From: Balneolales bacterium
GTDB taxonomy: Bacteria > Bacteroidota > Rhodothermia > Balneolales > Cyclonatronaceae
Reading direction: 5' to 3'
Assembly (NCBI GenBank): GCA_020832405.1
Contig: JAFIET010000040.1
Span: forward strand, 1-34,600
DNA length: 34,600 nucleotides
A program made the translations under genes and the position numbers. The notes under the pieces are model-generated. The model was not told the origin of the DNA, ran no database searches, and saw only the letters and a list, made by a program, of their open reading frames with translations. Each line of letters opens with the position of its first letter. The stretch's first letter is position 1. Of this stretch, positions 1,066-26,201 are shown piece after piece.

Positions 1066-2067
1066 TTAACTGATTGCATTAATGCGGTTCTGAAGCTCCC
1101 TGATTCTTTTGATGAGTTCCTGAAATGTAAGCGCATCTTCATAGATCATAAATCCGGCCATTTCGGAATAATCATTCTCATATTCCCTGATGACAGTTTC
1201 AGGTGGTATTATTCTGATTTTATCAGGTGTATGGTTGCTGTAATCAAGACCTCGTAGGGAATTAATTTTTTTTCTGTGAGCTACTATAGCCTGATATAGT
1301 TCCGGATTTTGTAAAGCAGCATTTCCATAGCCTGTACCTGCTACTTTTTCAATGTCATAGAGGTGTCTCGAAAGCCTGTTAGTCCGGATTTTTTCCGGTA
1401 CCTGCGAAAATTCTTCGTGCAGAAGAAAGATCTTTTCTAAAAAGGTTTTTTGAGGCGTCACAGTCATAACCTTAAAGCTTTCTTCTGCAAAACTCATTTT
1501 AGGAAAGGTTGAACTTAAAACCGAATGAATCTCCCGAACTTCCGCGGGCTCCATTAAAGATCTGGAACTTACCTCAATCAATACCCTTTGGGGCAGATAG
1601 GTGTGAGGCTCTGTAACTGAATGATAGTGAATTTCTATTGTCTGTGGATCTTTATCGGAGTTCGTTACAGCTTGGGCAATCAGCTCACAGTCTGAAATGG
1701 CGCCCCATTTTGTGAGCTTGCTGCGTAAATCCTGAATAAACTGATTTGATATAAACCCGCAGGATCGCTGCCTGAGTTTTTTGATTTGTGTCTTGCTGAT
1801 ATCTCCCTCATACCCAAAGAAGCTTCGGTCAATAGCCAAATCAATGTCTTCTGAAAACCGATGGATTAAGCCCCATGCCTTACTCAGTGAAGTACCTCCC
1901 TTGAACAGCAATTGTTCGCTGTATGGCAGTTCAAAGCAGGCCTTCAGGCACAGGGTAACCCACCAGTCTTTCTCAATAGCCGCCGCCGGTAAACCGGTAC
2001 GTTCCGTTACCTGATTGAGGATTTCAACCCTCCTCTGTTTTGGTAAGCTTAGCCAGCTCGTGTTCAT
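1066..2067 (-). CDS. abiEii: AbiEii/AbiGii-type nucleotidyltransferase toxin
   Basis: Toxin half of an AbiE-type toxin-antitoxin and phage-abortive-infection pair. Known family members are DUF1814 nucleotidyltransferases of the MNT-like fold that arrest growth; studied relatives modify tRNA 3' ends. The 333-aa protein shows the family signature in order: an IEKDWWVT segment (residues 31-38), FKGGTSLSK (55-63) and FSEDIDL (71-77), whose Asp74 and Asp76 should bind metal. All of these look intact, so it is probably active. The start codon overlaps the antitoxin stop in an ATGA arrangement, so the two are translationally coupled. The gene is more AT-rich than the housekeeping genes to the right (the 60 bases from 1261 contain 20 G+C by hand count), which suggests horizontal acquisition. 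Confidence 0.9.
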   Translation of the reverse strand: MNTSWLSLPKQRRVEILNQVTERTGLPAAAIEKDWWVTLCLKACFELPYSEQLLFKGGTSLSKAWGLIHRFSEDIDLAIDRSFFGYEGDISKTQIKKLRQRSCGFISNQFIQDLRSKLTKWGAISDCELIAQAVTNSDKDPQTIEIHYHSVTEPHTYLPQRVLIEVSSRSLMEPAEVREIHSVLSSTFPKMSFAEESFKVMTVTPQKTFLEKIFLLHEEFSQVPEKIRTNRLSRHLYDIEKVAGTGYGNAALQNPELYQAIVAHRKKINSLRGLDYSNHTPDKIRIIPPETVIREYENDYSEMAGFMIYEDALTFQELIKRIRELQNRINAIS

Positions 2068-2666
2068 CTCGCAGCCTTCATTAAAATGTCATAAATCCAT
2101 GCGGGCGAGAGCTTTGCATCATTGATGATGTTTTCATTTTTTTCTTTTTGCAGTATGGCCCTGATTTTATCCTGCGTTTGCTGGTCTGTGCGGTTCTGAC
2201 CAATGGTCTTTAGCGCCTGAATAACAAGACCGCTTATTTCCCCTTTGGCAAGAAGGTTTTTGGGCGTGGTTTTTTTGAAGGTAATGGTCCGCCTGCCAAC
2301 CTTAACCGTTCTTGCAGCACCATCTGTAAGGTAAACCACTTTCATTGGCACCTGGGCGGACAGGCCCAGTTTATTCAGGGCCTGAACACCTGTTGGTACA
2401 ATGCGCGCCCGATCGCGCCTTGCTATAGCTTGGGCTACTTCTTCTGTTGAGGGATAAAGAACACCAAGCTCAGCGTCTGTTTGGGGGTAAAAATAGATAC
2501 CATGAGCCAGGCGCAGCAATAGCCCTTCCTCTTTCAGGCGAAACAGGGCTTTTTTAACGCTTTCCGGATTTCCGTAATCCAGAAAATCGTCAATGAACAG
2601 AATGCTTCCCCTTGGGTAGCGTTTCAGGGCCTCAGCGATTTCAGATTTTACTTGCGGTCTTTTCAT
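2064..2666 (-). CDS. abiEi: AbiEi-type antitoxin (DUF6088-like, winged-helix)
   Basis: Antitoxin and likely autorepressor for the downstream nucleotidyltransferase. The N-terminal third reads as a winged-helix domain (a helix with SEIAEALKRYPRGS, then VKKALFRLKEEGLLLRLAHGIY, which is the usual recognition helix and wing of this family). The rest is the antitoxin domain with the conserved IVPTGVQALNKLGLS stretch. Two in-frame ATGs exist, at 2678 and 2666. I chose 2666 because the candidate -7 box at 2686-2693 would put the transcription start at or next to the first ATG, and because starting at MKRPQ fits the family's usual N-terminus. The longer form would add four residues (MILP). The 3' end overlaps the toxin start by 4 nt. 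Antitoxin-first gene order is normal for AbiE. Confidence 0.88.
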   Translation of the reverse strand: MKRPQVKSEIAEALKRYPRGSILFIDDFLDYGNPESVKKALFRLKEEGLLLRLAHGIYFYPQTDAELGVLYPSTEEVAQAIARRDRARIVPTGVQALNKLGLSAQVPMKVVYLTDGAARTVKVGRRTITFKKTTPKNLLAKGEISGLVIQALKTIGQNRTDQQTQDKIRAILQKEKNENIINDAKLSPAWIYDILMKAAR

Positions 2667-2674
2667 AGGAAGTA

Positions 2675-2715
2675 TCATTTCGTCCCAAATTTAGCAAATA
2701 TTTGGGACGAAATGA
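2675..2715 (-). promoter_or_regulatory. Promoter and operator of the abiE pair: perfect 16-bp inverted repeat
   Basis: Arms TCATTTCGTCCCAAAT (2675-2690) and its exact complement (2700-2715) are separated by 9 nt. Read on the minus strand, the inner part contains TAAATTTG (2686-2693), a perfect TAnnTTTG -7 box. TTTC at 2714-2717 lies 20 nt upstream as a possible -33 element. A protein dimer bound to the repeat would cover the -7 box and the transcription start. Known AbiEi antitoxins repress their own promoter through inverted repeats, so this is the likely autoregulatory operator. Confidence 0.75.
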
Positions 2716-2984
2716 AATCATCAGCGGAGGTTTTCAAAAGCTCTGGACCCTGTGACGGAACAAGCTGACCTTTTCGGGGATGTCTCCCCCAGATTCGTTT
2801 CCTGTGTGTAGGATATCATCGGTAATAGAATTTCAACCTGGGTTTCCCGGGCAAGCCACCTCCTCACACCCCGCCCTGCAGCACGCCGGACCCTCATTGG
2901 CTTTTTGCCAGTCAAACTTTTCCGAGCGCCGGGCAGCCCGTTACCGGGGCATCACAACGAGAGGGGATTCGGCCGCTTCAGAAA
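2716..2984. other. Intergenic stretch between the abiE pair and the type IIG gene
   Basis: No convincing gene is present. Short open frames on both strands have Arg- and Pro-rich translations without recognisable motifs. I see no T-run hairpin that would serve as a clear terminator for the restriction gene. Several G/C-rich imperfect repeats lie around 2930-2955, but none forms a strong stem. Confidence 0.5.
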
Positions 2985-5900
2985 TCACCCTTCGCCTTCC
3001 ACAATTTTTATTTCCTCTTCTGTGAGGCCGTAGAGCTGATATACGAGCTGGTCGATTTGGGCTTCAAGGGCGGAGGTGTCGGCTTGGGGGTTTTGCTTTT
3101 TGAGAGAGAGAATTTGCTCAACTATTGGTTCAAGCTTTTCTAACCCATTTGGAATTGGACAATCTCTAACATAATCAGTAAAAAATCTCATATATCCACC
3201 TCTAATTGAATTTGATACAGATTTGAAATACAATAAAAAAACTTTTGAATTTAGATATCCAAGCAAACCCTTTGAGTTCGAACTTATTTGATAAACTGTG
3301 TTGACACTATAATTTCCTTCTATATCAAGAATGAAATTCAATTCTTTTGAAATATCAGGATACATAATCTTGGGTTGAGCAAATTTAATATTGTTCACAG
3401 GGCTAGCTTGTAGCTCATACCATCTTCCGGTTCCAGCTCTTTTTTCCAATTTTGATTTAAATCTAATTAGATGCCGGTAAACTGAGCCATACTGCTCAAT
3501 TCCCACATTTCTCTCTGGAATAATAATGTATTTCGTCGCCTTGGGCTGCTGATATCTTTTGATGTCCCGGCCCGCTAAAAACGGTTTTATGATGGCAGCT
3601 GATGCAGGGTCTTCTGCGATGAGTTTATTTTTGGTTTCCTCATCTATCACAAAAGCTTCGTTTAGACCGGTTTTAATGCCGTAAAAAATTTTGCCTTCTA
3701 CGTAGTCCCCGAGTGGTACACCCGTATTTTTGAGTTTTGCGAGCAGTTTCTGAACCTTGCTGTCCGTGAGTGTCCATCCTTCAACCGGAAGTTCATTTAC
3801 CAGTACTTCGATCCGGTTTTGCGCCACATAGTCCGGGAGGCCGTCCGGGTAGGCAAGCGTTTCAATATTCACCGCTGTGAACATTTCCGAACCGGCACTT
3901 TTTCGCAGCTGCATGATGCAGGGGTAGGTTGTAGCTTCCTCAAAAACGGGCAGATCACCAAAATCGAGAATCTGAAGGATTTCAAAACTTCTGAGGTAGC
4001 GGCGCAGGGCTTCACCATAATTGGCGCGCATCCATTTGTTGGGAATAATGTAACAGAACGTTCCGCTGCCTTTGAGCAGATTCATTCCTAACTCAACAAA
4101 ATAGGTGAACAAATCAGCGGTACCGGCGAAGGTTTCAAAGCGGCTGCTCAGGTACGGCTTTATTTCCGTAAAAGCCTCCTGCCGGATATACGGCGGGTTG
4201 CCGATCACGACGTCGAAGCCTACGAATTCGCCCGCATCATTCAGCACTTCGGGGAATTCGAATCGCCATTCAAAGGCGTTTTCGTAGATTTTGTTGGCCT
4301 TTATTTCCTCAATTTCGGCTTCCAGCTTTTTGATTTCCTGCGCCAGCTTTTCGGTTTTTTTGGTCCATACGGCCTTCTCCTTTTTGCTCATCCCGAACAG
4401 GTCGGTCTGCGTGGTGAGCACGGTCAGCTCGCCCTGCAGCCGGCTGAGCCGTTTCAGTATGGGGTCATTTTTTGAAATTTCGCTCCGGAAATCCGATTTG
4501 ATGCCGGCAATGAGGCGCTCCATCTCCCGCTTCTGCTCCTTGCTTTGTGCGTTGCGGTAGGTATCAACGGCGGCCCGGTAGCTGCCGATGGTCCATCGGC
4601 TTTTTTTGAGCGCCTGCTTCAGGTCGGCATCCATCGCAAAGCGGCTCACGAGCGAGTTCCCGCACTTGATGTTGATGTCGATATTGGGCAGGGTTTCGAG
4701 CTCATCCGGGCTTTTGTAGTAGGCGTGTTTCAGCAGCTCAATCCACAGACGCAGCCGGCAGATTTTCACCGAATTCGGGTTGATGTCCACCCCGAAAAGG
4801 CTGTTTTCGATGAGGGTTTGTTTTTCGTGGAAGAGGGCCTCCTGCACCCGCTGACTCTCCGGGTTGGCGGGGCGGTAGTCGATCAGGGCGCCGTCTTCAT
4901 CGGTCACGATCAGCTCATCATTCACCACTTCCACAAAATATTCTTTCAGGCGGCGGCCGCTGCGGTCCTGCAAAATGCGCAGGTCGTTTTTCACGGCAAT
5001 CAGCTCGTTCAGGGCCGATACGAGGAAGTGCCCCGAGCCTACGGCCGGATCGCAGATTTTGAGGCTGTTCACAATTTCGTTGGCCTCCTGCCGGTCGTCA
5101 ATCCGGTCGTACAGGCCGCCGAGATCGGTGCAGTTCCAGCCCTTCACCTCGTTGAATTTCTGTACCACCGCCCGCCGGATGGTTTCGCGGCACATGTACA
5201 TGGTGATGAAGCCCGGGGTGAAGAACGAGCCGTCTTTGTAGCCGTTTATTTTCTCGAAGATGAGGCCGAGCACCGAGGCGTTAATCAGGGCTTTGTTGTC
5301 TTCCTGCACTTCCTCCGAGCCTTCACTGCTGAAATCGTAGGCGTTGAGAAATTCAAACAGGTATTCGAGGGTCCGCATCTCACCGGTGCGCTTCCGGCCG
5401 CTTTCGGTTTTGAGCACGGTCTGTGAAATCAGCGGGATGGTTTTGTCGTCTTTCAGGTTGCTGATCATCAGGGTGAGCTGCTCCGTCTCGCTGGGTTCAA
5501 ACAGGGAGGAGTTGAGGTAGGGAACCGTGGCGAAGAGCTGCTTCACGTCGGGGTTGCGCGCTTCCGTCCGGCGGGCGAGCACCTGAAAAAACAGGCTGTT
5601 GAGGTCGTCGTAGCTCTTCAGCTTTTCCGCATTGAGAAAGGCATACCGGGGGTCGCCCTTGTGGTAGGTGATGAGCTGGGCTTCGAGCAGCTTCAGGAAC
5701 AGCACCCGGTTGATCCAGGTGATGGTGAGTTCGAGGGCCACGCCGAACAGCCGCTCCTGATAGGTGGCGCCGTACTGCGACGGATTGGGGAGGCGGCCGA
5801 TTTTGTCGAGGCTGTCCAGCTGTATGATGGTATCCTCGAGAGTGCTGCCGGAGTTGCGCTCCGCTTCGCTGCTGCGCCCGATCAGCTTCTTGCCGCCCTG

Positions 5901-6701
5901 CCGGGTTTCGCTGAGCCCGATAATGTGGAGCAGCTCGCTGTAGAAGCGTTTGTCGAGGCTGTTGCTGTCGTTCACAAACGGAAGCTTGAGCAGGTGCTCG
6001 GGCGAAAGCAGCTTAAAAAGGGCGATGAGACGGGTATCGCCTGATTTATCGGTGCTGCGCAGCGGTTTTTCGTACTGCTGAAGGCTGAAGTGCGCGAACG
6101 TAATTTCAGAGCTGAGGCCGGCAATGAACGGGGCGGCAATCTGAGAGTAGAAGAAATCGGTAGTTGTGCCGGGCAGCCGGCCGGCCTCAAAATCGGTGAA
6201 CTGCTTCACTAGCGCCTTGTTTTGTGCAAAGAGGACTTCAAAAACGGACGCATCAAAAATGAACCACTCATTAATATTGGTGATGATGAGGTGCTTCAGC
6301 TCCGGGTTTTGGTGCGTAATCCGCTCGCGCAGGTAGTAGAGCAGCAGCTCCTGAAAAGCCTTGCGGTTGAGGTCGGCCGTGCTCACCATCTCAGCCCGGT
6401 TGCCCGGCTTCTTGGCCTCGATAATTACCCCGACGCTGCTTTTGGCCTTATCCCCGTTGTGGATCACCAGGTCGTTACGCCCCTTGGTATTGATGTAATG
6501 GGCGGGATCGTACCAGGTCTTCTTCAGAAAATCAGACAGCAGGTTCTTGTGAAACTCTTCGGATTCGCCCTCATTCTCCCGGGTGCGGTCCAGCAGAGCG
6601 CGCAGGCCGGCTTTAAACCGCTCCATGTCGGAGCGGATGGGCTTCACCTTCAGAAAGGCTTTATTCAGGGCCCGCCGGGGCGCATTTATGGTAAGCTGCA
6701 T
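2985..6701 (-). CDS. Type IIG (Eco57I-like) restriction-modification protein
   Basis: Single-chain restriction endonuclease and adenine DNA methyltransferase, 1238 aa. The N-terminus (ALNKAFLKVKP, residues 11-21) is typical of the family. A PD-(D/E)xK nuclease site follows, with Asp77 and Glu95-Ala-Lys97 in IIEAKK. A helical linker leads to GSFFTP (491-496). Methyltransferase motif I is DPAVGSGHF at 551-559, and the catalytic motif IV is NPPYIR at 835-840. Between motifs I and IV lies a long charged, probably coiled-coil insert (about 720-805). The C-terminal third should be the target recognition domain. All catalytic residues are present, so it is probably functional. The DNA for residues about 1074-1194 is strikingly AT-rich compared with the rest. 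No separate specificity or methylase gene is nearby, as expected for IIG. Confidence 0.9.
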   Translation of the reverse strand: MQLTINAPRRALNKAFLKVKPIRSDMERFKAGLRALLDRTRENEGESEEFHKNLLSDFLKKTWYDPAHYINTKGRNDLVIHNGDKAKSSVGVIIEAKKPGNRAEMVSTADLNRKAFQELLLYYLRERITHQNPELKHLIITNINEWFIFDASVFEVLFAQNKALVKQFTDFEAGRLPGTTTDFFYSQIAAPFIAGLSSEITFAHFSLQQYEKPLRSTDKSGDTRLIALFKLLSPEHLLKLPFVNDSNSLDKRFYSELLHIIGLSETRQGGKKLIGRSSEAERNSGSTLEDTIIQLDSLDKIGRLPNPSQYGATYQERLFGVALELTITWINRVLFLKLLEAQLITYHKGDPRYAFLNAEKLKSYDDLNSLFFQVLARRTEARNPDVKQLFATVPYLNSSLFEPSETEQLTLMISNLKDDKTIPLISQTVLKTESGRKRTGEMRTLEYLFEFLNAYDFSSEGSEEVQEDNKALINASVLGLIFEKINGYKDGSFFTPGFITMYMCRETIRRAVVQKFNEVKGWNCTDLGGLYDRIDDRQEANEIVNSLKICDPAVGSGHFLVSALNELIAVKNDLRILQDRSGRRLKEYFVEVVNDELIVTDEDGALIDYRPANPESQRVQEALFHEKQTLIENSLFGVDINPNSVKICRLRLWIELLKHAYYKSPDELETLPNIDINIKCGNSLVSRFAMDADLKQALKKSRWTIGSYRAAVDTYRNAQSKEQKREMERLIAGIKSDFRSEISKNDPILKRLSRLQGELTVLTTQTDLFGMSKKEKAVWTKKTEKLAQEIKKLEAEIEEIKANKIYENAFEWRFEFPEVLNDAGEFVGFDVVIGNPPYIRQEAFTEIKPYLSSRFETFAGTADLFTYFVELGMNLLKGSGTFCYIIPNKWMRANYGEALRRYLRSFEILQILDFGDLPVFEEATTYPCIMQLRKSAGSEMFTAVNIETLAYPDGLPDYVAQNRIEVLVNELPVEGWTLTDSKVQKLLAKLKNTGVPLGDYVEGKIFYGIKTGLNEAFVIDEETKNKLIAEDPASAAIIKPFLAGRDIKRYQQPKATKYIIIPERNVGIEQYGSVYRHLIRFKSKLEKRAGTGRWYELQASPVNNIKFAQPKIMYPDISKELNFILDIEGNYSVNTVYQISSNSKGLLGYLNSKVFLLYFKSVSNSIRGGYMRFFTDYVRDCPIPNGLEKLEPIVEQILSLKKQNPQADTSALEAQIDQLVYQLYGLTEEEIKIVEGEG

Positions 6702-25395: not shown

Positions 25396-25469
25396 CGGGA
25401 TGTAGCGCAGCCCGGTAGCGCACACGCCTGGGGGGCGTGGGGTCGCAGGTTCAAATCCTGTCATCCCGA
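25396..25469 (+). tRNA. tRNA-Pro (anticodon GGG)
   Basis: Decodes CCC and CCU. The acceptor stem CGGGATG pairs with CATCCCG with discriminator A at 25469. The D arm contains AGCGCAGCCCGGTAGCGC. The anticodon stem CACGC/GCGTG encloses the 7-base loop CTGGGGG with GGG as anticodon, and the T arm is GCAGG-TTCAAAT-CCTGT. The CCA end is not encoded (CTCA follows). A perfect 14-bp hairpin with a T-run lies just downstream. Confidence 0.97.
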
Positions 25470-25480
25470 CTCATCAAATT

Positions 25481-25514
25481 AAAGCCGGTTCTCAAATGAG
25501 AACCGGCTTTTTTT
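25481..25514. terminator. Terminator after tRNA-Pro, probably bidirectional
   Basis: A perfect 14-bp stem (25481-25494 against 25497-25510) with a minimal loop, followed by seven T on the plus strand. On the minus strand it ends in TTTAATTTG and can serve the gene at 25540-26103. Confidence 0.9.
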
Positions 25515-25539: not shown

Positions 25540-26103
25540 TTAGGCATAGGCCTTGTCCAGCATTGCATCCGGCTGAACCCAGCCGTAATACGCCTGATGA
25601 AACAAGCTGAACCGCATCCGCCCGCCAAACCAGTTCCAAACGGTTTTCTGATCTACACTACTTGGCCGCCCGGTTGAAAGCGCCAGAAAAGATGAAAAAG
25701 GATAACTCCGGTAATCTGTTGAAACATGATAACGCTGTGGCATGGTGTGGATGTCAAATGCCCGGTAAATACACTCTTTTTCTGTACTAAGCTCTTCTGC
25801 ATAGGCCCTCTGCAGGAATACTTCAAGTTCACTCACCGTGAGCACACCCACAAACCCGCTTCGAAGTTTTTCGCATACATAAGAGAGCATGTTTTCGGGG
25901 CTAACCGGCTCAGAAGACTGAACGCTAATTATTACTCCGAAACGCCCGGGTATCAGCACATAAGCGCAGGTTTTAATCTTTTGTGCAAAGCAGGCCCGCC
26001 ACGCATTTAGGAAGGCAAACCGATCAGCTCTTTGTTTAAACAAGCTGTCACTTTCGGTTACAAACTGCAGGAAGAAGTATCGTTCGGAAATTGTATTTTT
26101 CAT
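25540..26103 (-). CDS. REP/Y1-transposase-like protein lacking the HUH histidines
   Basis: A 187-aa protein resembling the REP-associated tyrosine transposase family (IS200-related). The match runs from ERYFFLQFVTESDSLFKQR through FLNAWRACF and KTCAYVLIPGRFGVIISVQ, to YRSYPFSSFLALSTGRP and VWNWFGG. In active relatives the central strand reads MPNHVHLLI, the HUH metal site. Here it reads IPGRFGVII, with both histidines gone. It is therefore probably not a nuclease, more likely a domesticated DNA- or RNA-binding derivative. I chose ATG 26103 because GGAG lies 8 nt upstream; longer starts at 26115 and 26145 exist. It sits between tRNA-Pro and a divergent WbqC gene, with no flanking inverted repeats or partner gene. 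Confidence 0.68.
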   Translation of the reverse strand: MKNTISERYFFLQFVTESDSLFKQRADRFAFLNAWRACFAQKIKTCAYVLIPGRFGVIISVQSSEPVSPENMLSYVCEKLRSGFVGVLTVSELEVFLQRAYAEELSTEKECIYRAFDIHTMPQRYHVSTDYRSYPFSSFLALSTGRPSSVDQKTVWNWFGGRMRFSLFHQAYYGWVQPDAMLDKAYA

Positions 26104-26201
26104 AATGTGCTCCATTTGGTTTTTATTGTTTTCCGGATAGAGCAAAAAGCCGCCAAAACCTTACATCTGAGCTCAAAATAAATCAGGCCGTTCCAAATTT
26201 A

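Follow-up and report, generated by a model that had tools for sequence, protein, structure and literature searches.

A RAYT-like protein without catalytic residues is maintained by selection in a Balneolales family and shares a promoter-like box with DNA-uptake genes

A protein with the fold of the REP-associated tyrosine transposases (RAYT/TnpA_REP) has lost every catalytic residue of its family and is nevertheless maintained by purifying selection in one family of Balneolales. We found that its gene is preceded, in every genome that carries it, by a promoter-like box that also precedes genes for DNA uptake and single-strand processing. The gene lies at positions 25540–26103 on the minus strand of a 34,600-nucleotide stretch of Balneolales DNA (the window). 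Its open reading frame was confirmed, with the ATG at 26103 and a stop codon that ends at 25540, and it encodes 187 amino acids. The assignment rests on the open reading frame itself, on a clade of 11 homologues, on the predicted fold, and on an omega of 0.11. We refer to the gene and its clade as dead in the catalytic sense only.

Standard family models do not recognize the protein. The window protein had no family match in Pfam, NCBIfam, or PHROGs (including NCBIfam REP_Tyr_transpos), and Pfam Y1_Tnp matched none of the 11 clade members. For an intact RAYT encoded elsewhere in this genome, the NF047646 match (4.3e-18) itself falls short of the model cut-off. Two candidate relationships were rejected as chance: a STING_TM match at 0.076, and a match to Cullin-3 (E = 0.15), the only one obtained when the sequence profile was compared with PDB chains. 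A search of 60 related genomes recovered close homologues of 181–195 amino acids within the window gene's own genus and family; elsewhere in the order it gave only weak matches, to proteins with an intact MPNHFHLLI strand. When named genomes were searched, a single-sequence query found no match and an alignment query found seven loci.

Comparison of profiles and of structures resolved the relationship. When the profile of the dead clade was compared with a profile of ten intact RAYT-like proteins from the order, the alignment spanned 167 columns with E = 1.6e-20. An AlphaFold2 model built from the 11-member alignment (mean pLDDT 89.5, pTM 0.85) had a single PDB match below 0.001, namely 4ER8, the structure of a REP hairpin in complex with TnpA_REP from E. 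coli (E = 1.7e-5, probability 1.00); the matches that followed were IS200/IS605 transposases. In a viral structure library a single hit, to a protein without a name, fell narrowly below 0.001. An intact RAYT of this genome, modelled identically as a control, likewise had 4ER8 as its top match (E = 9.7e-9). Strands and helices occur in identical order in the dead and intact models and correspond one for one. The two models differ in the RxGSLF-bearing helix that precedes the tyrosine motif, which is 24 residues long in the intact protein and 9 in the dead one, and in a disordered linker of the intact RAYT that is missing from the dead protein. The dead proteins are basic (pI 8.6–9.3), like the intact ones. 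These results show that the dead protein is a distant member of the RAYT/TnpA_REP fold. The sequence-only reading had proposed a REP-associated Y1 framework; this proposal held, and the structure prediction, which could have refuted it, did not.

The active site of a class 2 TnpA consists of the two histidines of the HUH motif, the tyrosine of Y---NP, and an asparagine four residues further on (PMC6006769). We compared these columns between the 11 clade members, which come from 9 genomes, and 36 intact homologues. The HUH strand reads IPGRFGVII in the window protein and MPNHFHLLI in active relatives (residues 52–59, PGRFGVII, are encoded at 25927–25950, minus strand), so that R54 and G56 stand in place of the two histidines. 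The first histidine column holds His in 35 of the 36 intact proteins and R, E, D, C, Q, T, or N in the clade; the second holds His in all 36, and S, G, E, K, or D in the clade. The tyrosine motif is degenerate as well (residues 116–122, FDIHTMP; 25738–25758, minus strand). Its nucleophile column (YIHxNP) is Tyr in 36/36 intact proteins and acidic throughout the clade (Asp in ten members, Glu in one); in the window protein D117 occupies this position. The column of the third metal ligand is Asn in 36/36 intact proteins and M, L, I, or T in the clade, with M121 in the window protein. Both histidines, the tyrosine, and the asparagine have thus been lost across the clade. The neighbours of the lost residues in the tyrosine motif are retained (His119 in 11/11, Pro122 in 10/11), and the alignment at this point is therefore not in doubt. 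The tyrosine of SYTK was considered as an alternative nucleophile and rejected, because YIHxNP holds the nucleophile both according to published work and when intact relatives are aligned to 4ER8. The earlier reading had correctly reported the sequence of the HUH strand, but its claim that exactly the metal ligands had been lost held only in part: the tyrosine and the asparagine are gone too, and the helix before the tyrosine is shortened.

Conservation in the clade is concentrated elsewhere. The most conserved region comprises residues 125–176 (DYRSYPFSS..WNWFGG..F..FHQ; 25576–25731, minus strand) and corresponds to the "SS" C-terminal block of class 2 TnpA_REP, the survival of which had been proposed beforehand and is confirmed here. 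Mean pairwise identity within the clade is 0.58 in this region and 0.26–0.42 in the N-terminal and middle parts. The clade has also acquired conserved residues that are absent from RAYTs (W35-R36, C46, G86, E108-K109, and D130-Y131-R132), among which W35-R36, G86, and D130/R132 are invariant. A separate 164-amino-acid RAYT-like protein in another genome (G019, L012:1462-1953) has partly lost its HUH motif (FCLMKDNSHIIL) and lacks the middle of the protein; it may represent a second, independent loss of HUH.

The dead gene was found in 9 of the 11 genomes of its taxonomic family. It was missing from the other two, both of genus g3 (89% and 95% complete). The 11 genes form a single group in the tree with 100/100 support and a long stem. 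The branching of the clade resembles that of recJ, with G005 and G003 nearest to the window gene, followed by G002 and G004 and then by G001, G008, and G006. The genome of the window (G000; 3.96 Mb in 188 contigs) contains no second close match; in the ancestor of G002 and G004 the gene was duplicated in tandem, and neither copy has been disrupted. All 11 reading frames are intact, without a stop codon in any copy, and 23 columns are invariant. Because pairwise dN/dS was mostly saturated at synonymous sites, we used a codon model on the tree, which estimated omega at 0.111 over the whole clade and at 0.110 when restricted to the genus. With omega held at 1, the log-likelihood dropped by 341 for the whole clade (2 x delta lnL 683) and by 196 for the genus. 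Purifying selection on the gene is thus shown, and its inheritance within the family is vertical. Whether the dead clade descends directly from the box-bearing intact RAYTs described below was neither supported nor rejected (p-AU 0.057).

These results bear on the proposal, made from the sequence alone, that the gene reflects domestication and not random decay. The loss of the histidines is old and common to all 11 genes, so that the window gene is not a lone broken copy, and the ratio of nonsynonymous to synonymous change is low. The proposal is supported, but its wording needs care, because working RAYTs are already called domesticated (PMC8049555). The dead gene is a further step beyond that domestication, a descendant free of catalysis, and the promoter evidence, which goes beyond the earlier reading, likely provides the context for this step.

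The genomic neighbourhood is uninformative about function. The gene order recJ–dps–tRNA-Pro–dead gene–wbqC is common to the nearest relatives, G005 and G003, and differs elsewhere; as the flanking genes are shared only by the closest relatives, the position reveals no functional partner, and operon partners inferred from the neighbourhood were rejected on the same grounds. The tRNA-Pro (GGG) gene and a strong hairpin terminator occupy 25396–25510 of the window, convergent with the dead gene; the terminator-like hairpin itself is at 25481–25510 (plus strand), and both genes converge on it. At 1066–6701 the window also contains a small defence block, in which a gene for an AbiEii-type type IV toxin–antitoxin protein (1069–2067) adjoins one for an Eco57I-like restriction–modification enzyme (2985–6701).

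The upstream region of the dead gene is conserved even where its neighbours are not. A TGTAASG box lies 50–64 nt before the start codon in 11/11 dead genes and is followed by a TCT-like element, and the neighbouring genes vary. In the window, the box reads TGTAAGGTTTT-N14-CTAT (26137–26165, minus strand) and starts 62 nt upstream of the ATG. The chance of finding TGTAASG within 65 nt is approximately 0.009, as estimated from 454 kb of related loci that had been collected for other purposes; because the clade members are related to one another, the product of these chances over the upstream regions is merely indicative. We rejected the possibility that the box belongs to the divergent wbqC, as it accompanies the dead gene where wbqC sits elsewhere. 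Conservation extends beyond the search pattern to a TT in the spacer, an AC ahead of the TC, and an A-rich stretch afterwards, and we infer that the box resembles a promoter of the ECF-sigma type.

The same box was found at other genes. With the full pattern, the genome of the window contains six sites and the reversed control none; of the six, two precede the intact RAYTs, one precedes radC, and one precedes the dead gene. With the pattern relaxed a little, the 11 genomes of the family yielded 53 sites and 3 reversed-control sites. Downstream of the family sites are radC (in seven genomes), ssb (four), recQ (three), comM (two), and recJ (one), as well as comEC, comF, and integron integrases (four genomes). 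Genes were also selected without reference to the box, by picking comEC and dprA with Pfam models. The box was present in 7 of 9 complete comEC upstream regions, at a near-constant distance of approximately 34–37 nt from the start; the comEC genes of G000 and G005 lack an exact box (TGTAAAA). It was absent from all 10 dprA upstream regions and present in 1 of 10 for recJ.

Among intact RAYTs, the box precedes 10/10 of the IWTHANG type, including both in the genome of the window, versus 1/25 of the others. The IWTHANG subgroup is defined by sequence, but it was named after a first look at the upstream regions, and the division is therefore partly post hoc. The two intact RAYT genes of the window's genome are tandem and near-identical (L095; G000:C165:9041-12364). 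A palindrome, GACCTGACAGGTTTTCAAAACCTGTCAGGTC, occurs in the flanks of each of them and inside each gene, where it encodes LTGFENLSG; 17 exact half-sites of this palindrome family are spread across the genome.

A strict pattern, for which the spacing and ending were taken from RAYT upstream regions, was applied to 126 genomes from across the order and yielded more than 100 sites and none in the reversed control. Thirty of these loci were read, and the genes downstream were ssb, radC, recQ, integron-type integrases, RAYTs, and genes for small four-helix proteins. On the strength of these comparisons we consider it very likely that the dead gene belongs to a regulon with genes for DNA uptake; there are no expression data, and the regulator has not been identified.

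Many other small genes carry the box. Among loci L187-L216 and L112-L164 it precedes genes for four-helix proteins of the 23S rRNA intervening-sequence type, PDDEXK_3 (GxxExxY) proteins, GIY-YIG-like proteins, another kind of Y1 transposase (L192), and lamin-tail secreted proteins. Exploitation of the regulon by selfish or accessory genes is possible. Integron-type integrases with the box were seen at L135, L137, L157, L159, and L201, one of which matches TIGR02249 at E ~1e-77; the box at these genes would put integron activity into the same programme.

What the dead protein does must be inferred. RAYTs and integron integrases act on folded single-stranded DNA (PMC8266576), and the regulon brings the uptake channel together with proteins active on single strands; for a RAYT descendant that is produced at the same time and lacks an active site, the simplest role would be to bind such strands without cutting them. 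In our preferred reading, a descendant of a single-strand transposase that has lost catalysis and kept the fold and C-terminal block would be transcribed from the promoter common to comEC, comM, comF, ssb, radC, recQ, the integron integrases, and the intact RAYTs. With the regulon active, the protein would bind single-stranded or folded DNA, either the incoming transforming strand or hairpins exposed within it, and would protect, present, or route it. This reading, a non-cleaving RAYT descendant that is co-regulated with DNA uptake and handles single-stranded DNA, could in our judgment as easily be wrong as right. The competence label rests on the gene content of the regulon, and single-strand binding and the protective or routing role are likewise inferred, without expression, binding, or transformation data. 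Several observations weigh against it: an exact box is missing at comEC in G000 and G005 and at all 10 dprA genes; the helix ahead of the tyrosine motif, long in intact RAYTs, is shortened (the REP-contacting residues of 4ER8 were not compared individually); and the regulon also holds the intervening-sequence, GIY-YIG-like, and lamin-tail genes, the relevance of which is unclear. A bolder version, which we lean slightly against, is that Balneolales RAYTs take part in a natural-competence programme and that the RAYT of one family has become a non-cleaving handler of single-stranded DNA in transformation. If true, this would be the first physiological setting for RAYTs.

Other explanations can be ranked against this reading. 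The most serious is a new function apart from DNA uptake, in which the fold would be reused in a regulator that binds RNA or other proteins, and the box would serve general stress or an alternative sigma factor instead of competence. The newly conserved residues suggest a new surface, and recQ, radC, ssb, and the integron integrase could suit a response to DNA damage. A regulon of that type is the main alternative to competence, and the absence of the box from dprA speaks for it; the presence of comEC, comM, and comF in the regulon speaks against it. We regard this explanation as possible. A dominant-negative or antidote role, in which the dead protein would bind REP hairpins or pair with intact RAYTs and so restrain cutting, would account for the promoter common to the dead gene and the intact RAYTs. 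It is favoured by the two box-bearing intact RAYTs and the REP palindromes of the window's genome, and by the intact copies in G005, G002, G003, and G008. However, G004 (100% complete) keeps two dead copies, and no intact RAYT, Y1_Tnp match, or REP half-site was found in it; no intact A2-type RAYT was detected in G001 (98% complete); and the REP family of the window's own genome does not occur around the dead gene or anywhere in the window (other palindrome families are not excluded). On the evidence of these two genomes, a purely inhibitory role is the less likely one, although it is not excluded elsewhere, and overall we consider the explanation unlikely.

The two remaining alternatives have less to recommend them. 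A new enzyme could have arisen if the acidic residue at the old nucleophile position (Asp or Glu in 11/11) and the retained His119 (11/11) formed a different active site. Intact RAYTs conserve His119 just as strictly (36/36), so it need not be part of anything new, and we consider this explanation very unlikely. Mere decay of a transposase gene would explain why the catalytic histidine columns vary freely, as is expected after loss of catalysis, but the intact frames, the low omega, the invariant columns, the conserved promoter, and the long vertical inheritance all but exclude it, and the selection test refutes it.

The exact host function of RAYTs is unknown (PMC8049555). Selection has here preserved a RAYT descendant that has no catalytic residue left, and its useful property is therefore not cutting, at least in this lineage. 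Through the shared box, genes for DNA uptake and single-strand processing are linked with the dead protein and also with an entire subgroup of intact RAYTs, so that the question of whether these RAYTs are competence proteins becomes testable. We found no report of a link between RAYTs and competence in the literature searched, which did not cover most subscription journals.

Compared with the known RAYT/TnpA_REP proteins (TnpAY1 class 2, subclasses 2.4 and 2.6; Quentin et al., 2018; 4ER8), the dead protein is alike in its fold and order of secondary structure, its N-terminal YH(I) strand, its IHxxP frame, its C-terminal SS block, its low copy number, and its vertical inheritance. It differs in lacking the HUH motif, the tyrosine, the asparagine ligand, the REP insert, and any Pfam or NCBIfam match, and in its shortened pre-tyrosine helix; it lies beyond what Quentin et al. 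retained as likely functional. In TnpAY1 class 3, 5 of 10 members lack the HuH or Y motifs and were judged non-functional and set aside (PMC6006769). In contrast to these and other motif-less members, the dead clade is functional as judged by selection and by its conserved promoter, and motif-less members dropped from family surveys as non-functional merit a second look. The intact IWTHANG-type RAYTs of Balneolales share the fold and the box with the dead clade but have intact catalytic residues, and the pair on contig C165 has REP palindromes associated with it. The competence regulons of other bacteria (SigX, SigH, and Sxy/CRP-S) hold comEC, comF, comM, ssb, and radC; the Balneolales regulon differs from them in its box, TGTAASGWTTT-N13-TCW, and in the inclusion of RAYTs and integron integrases.
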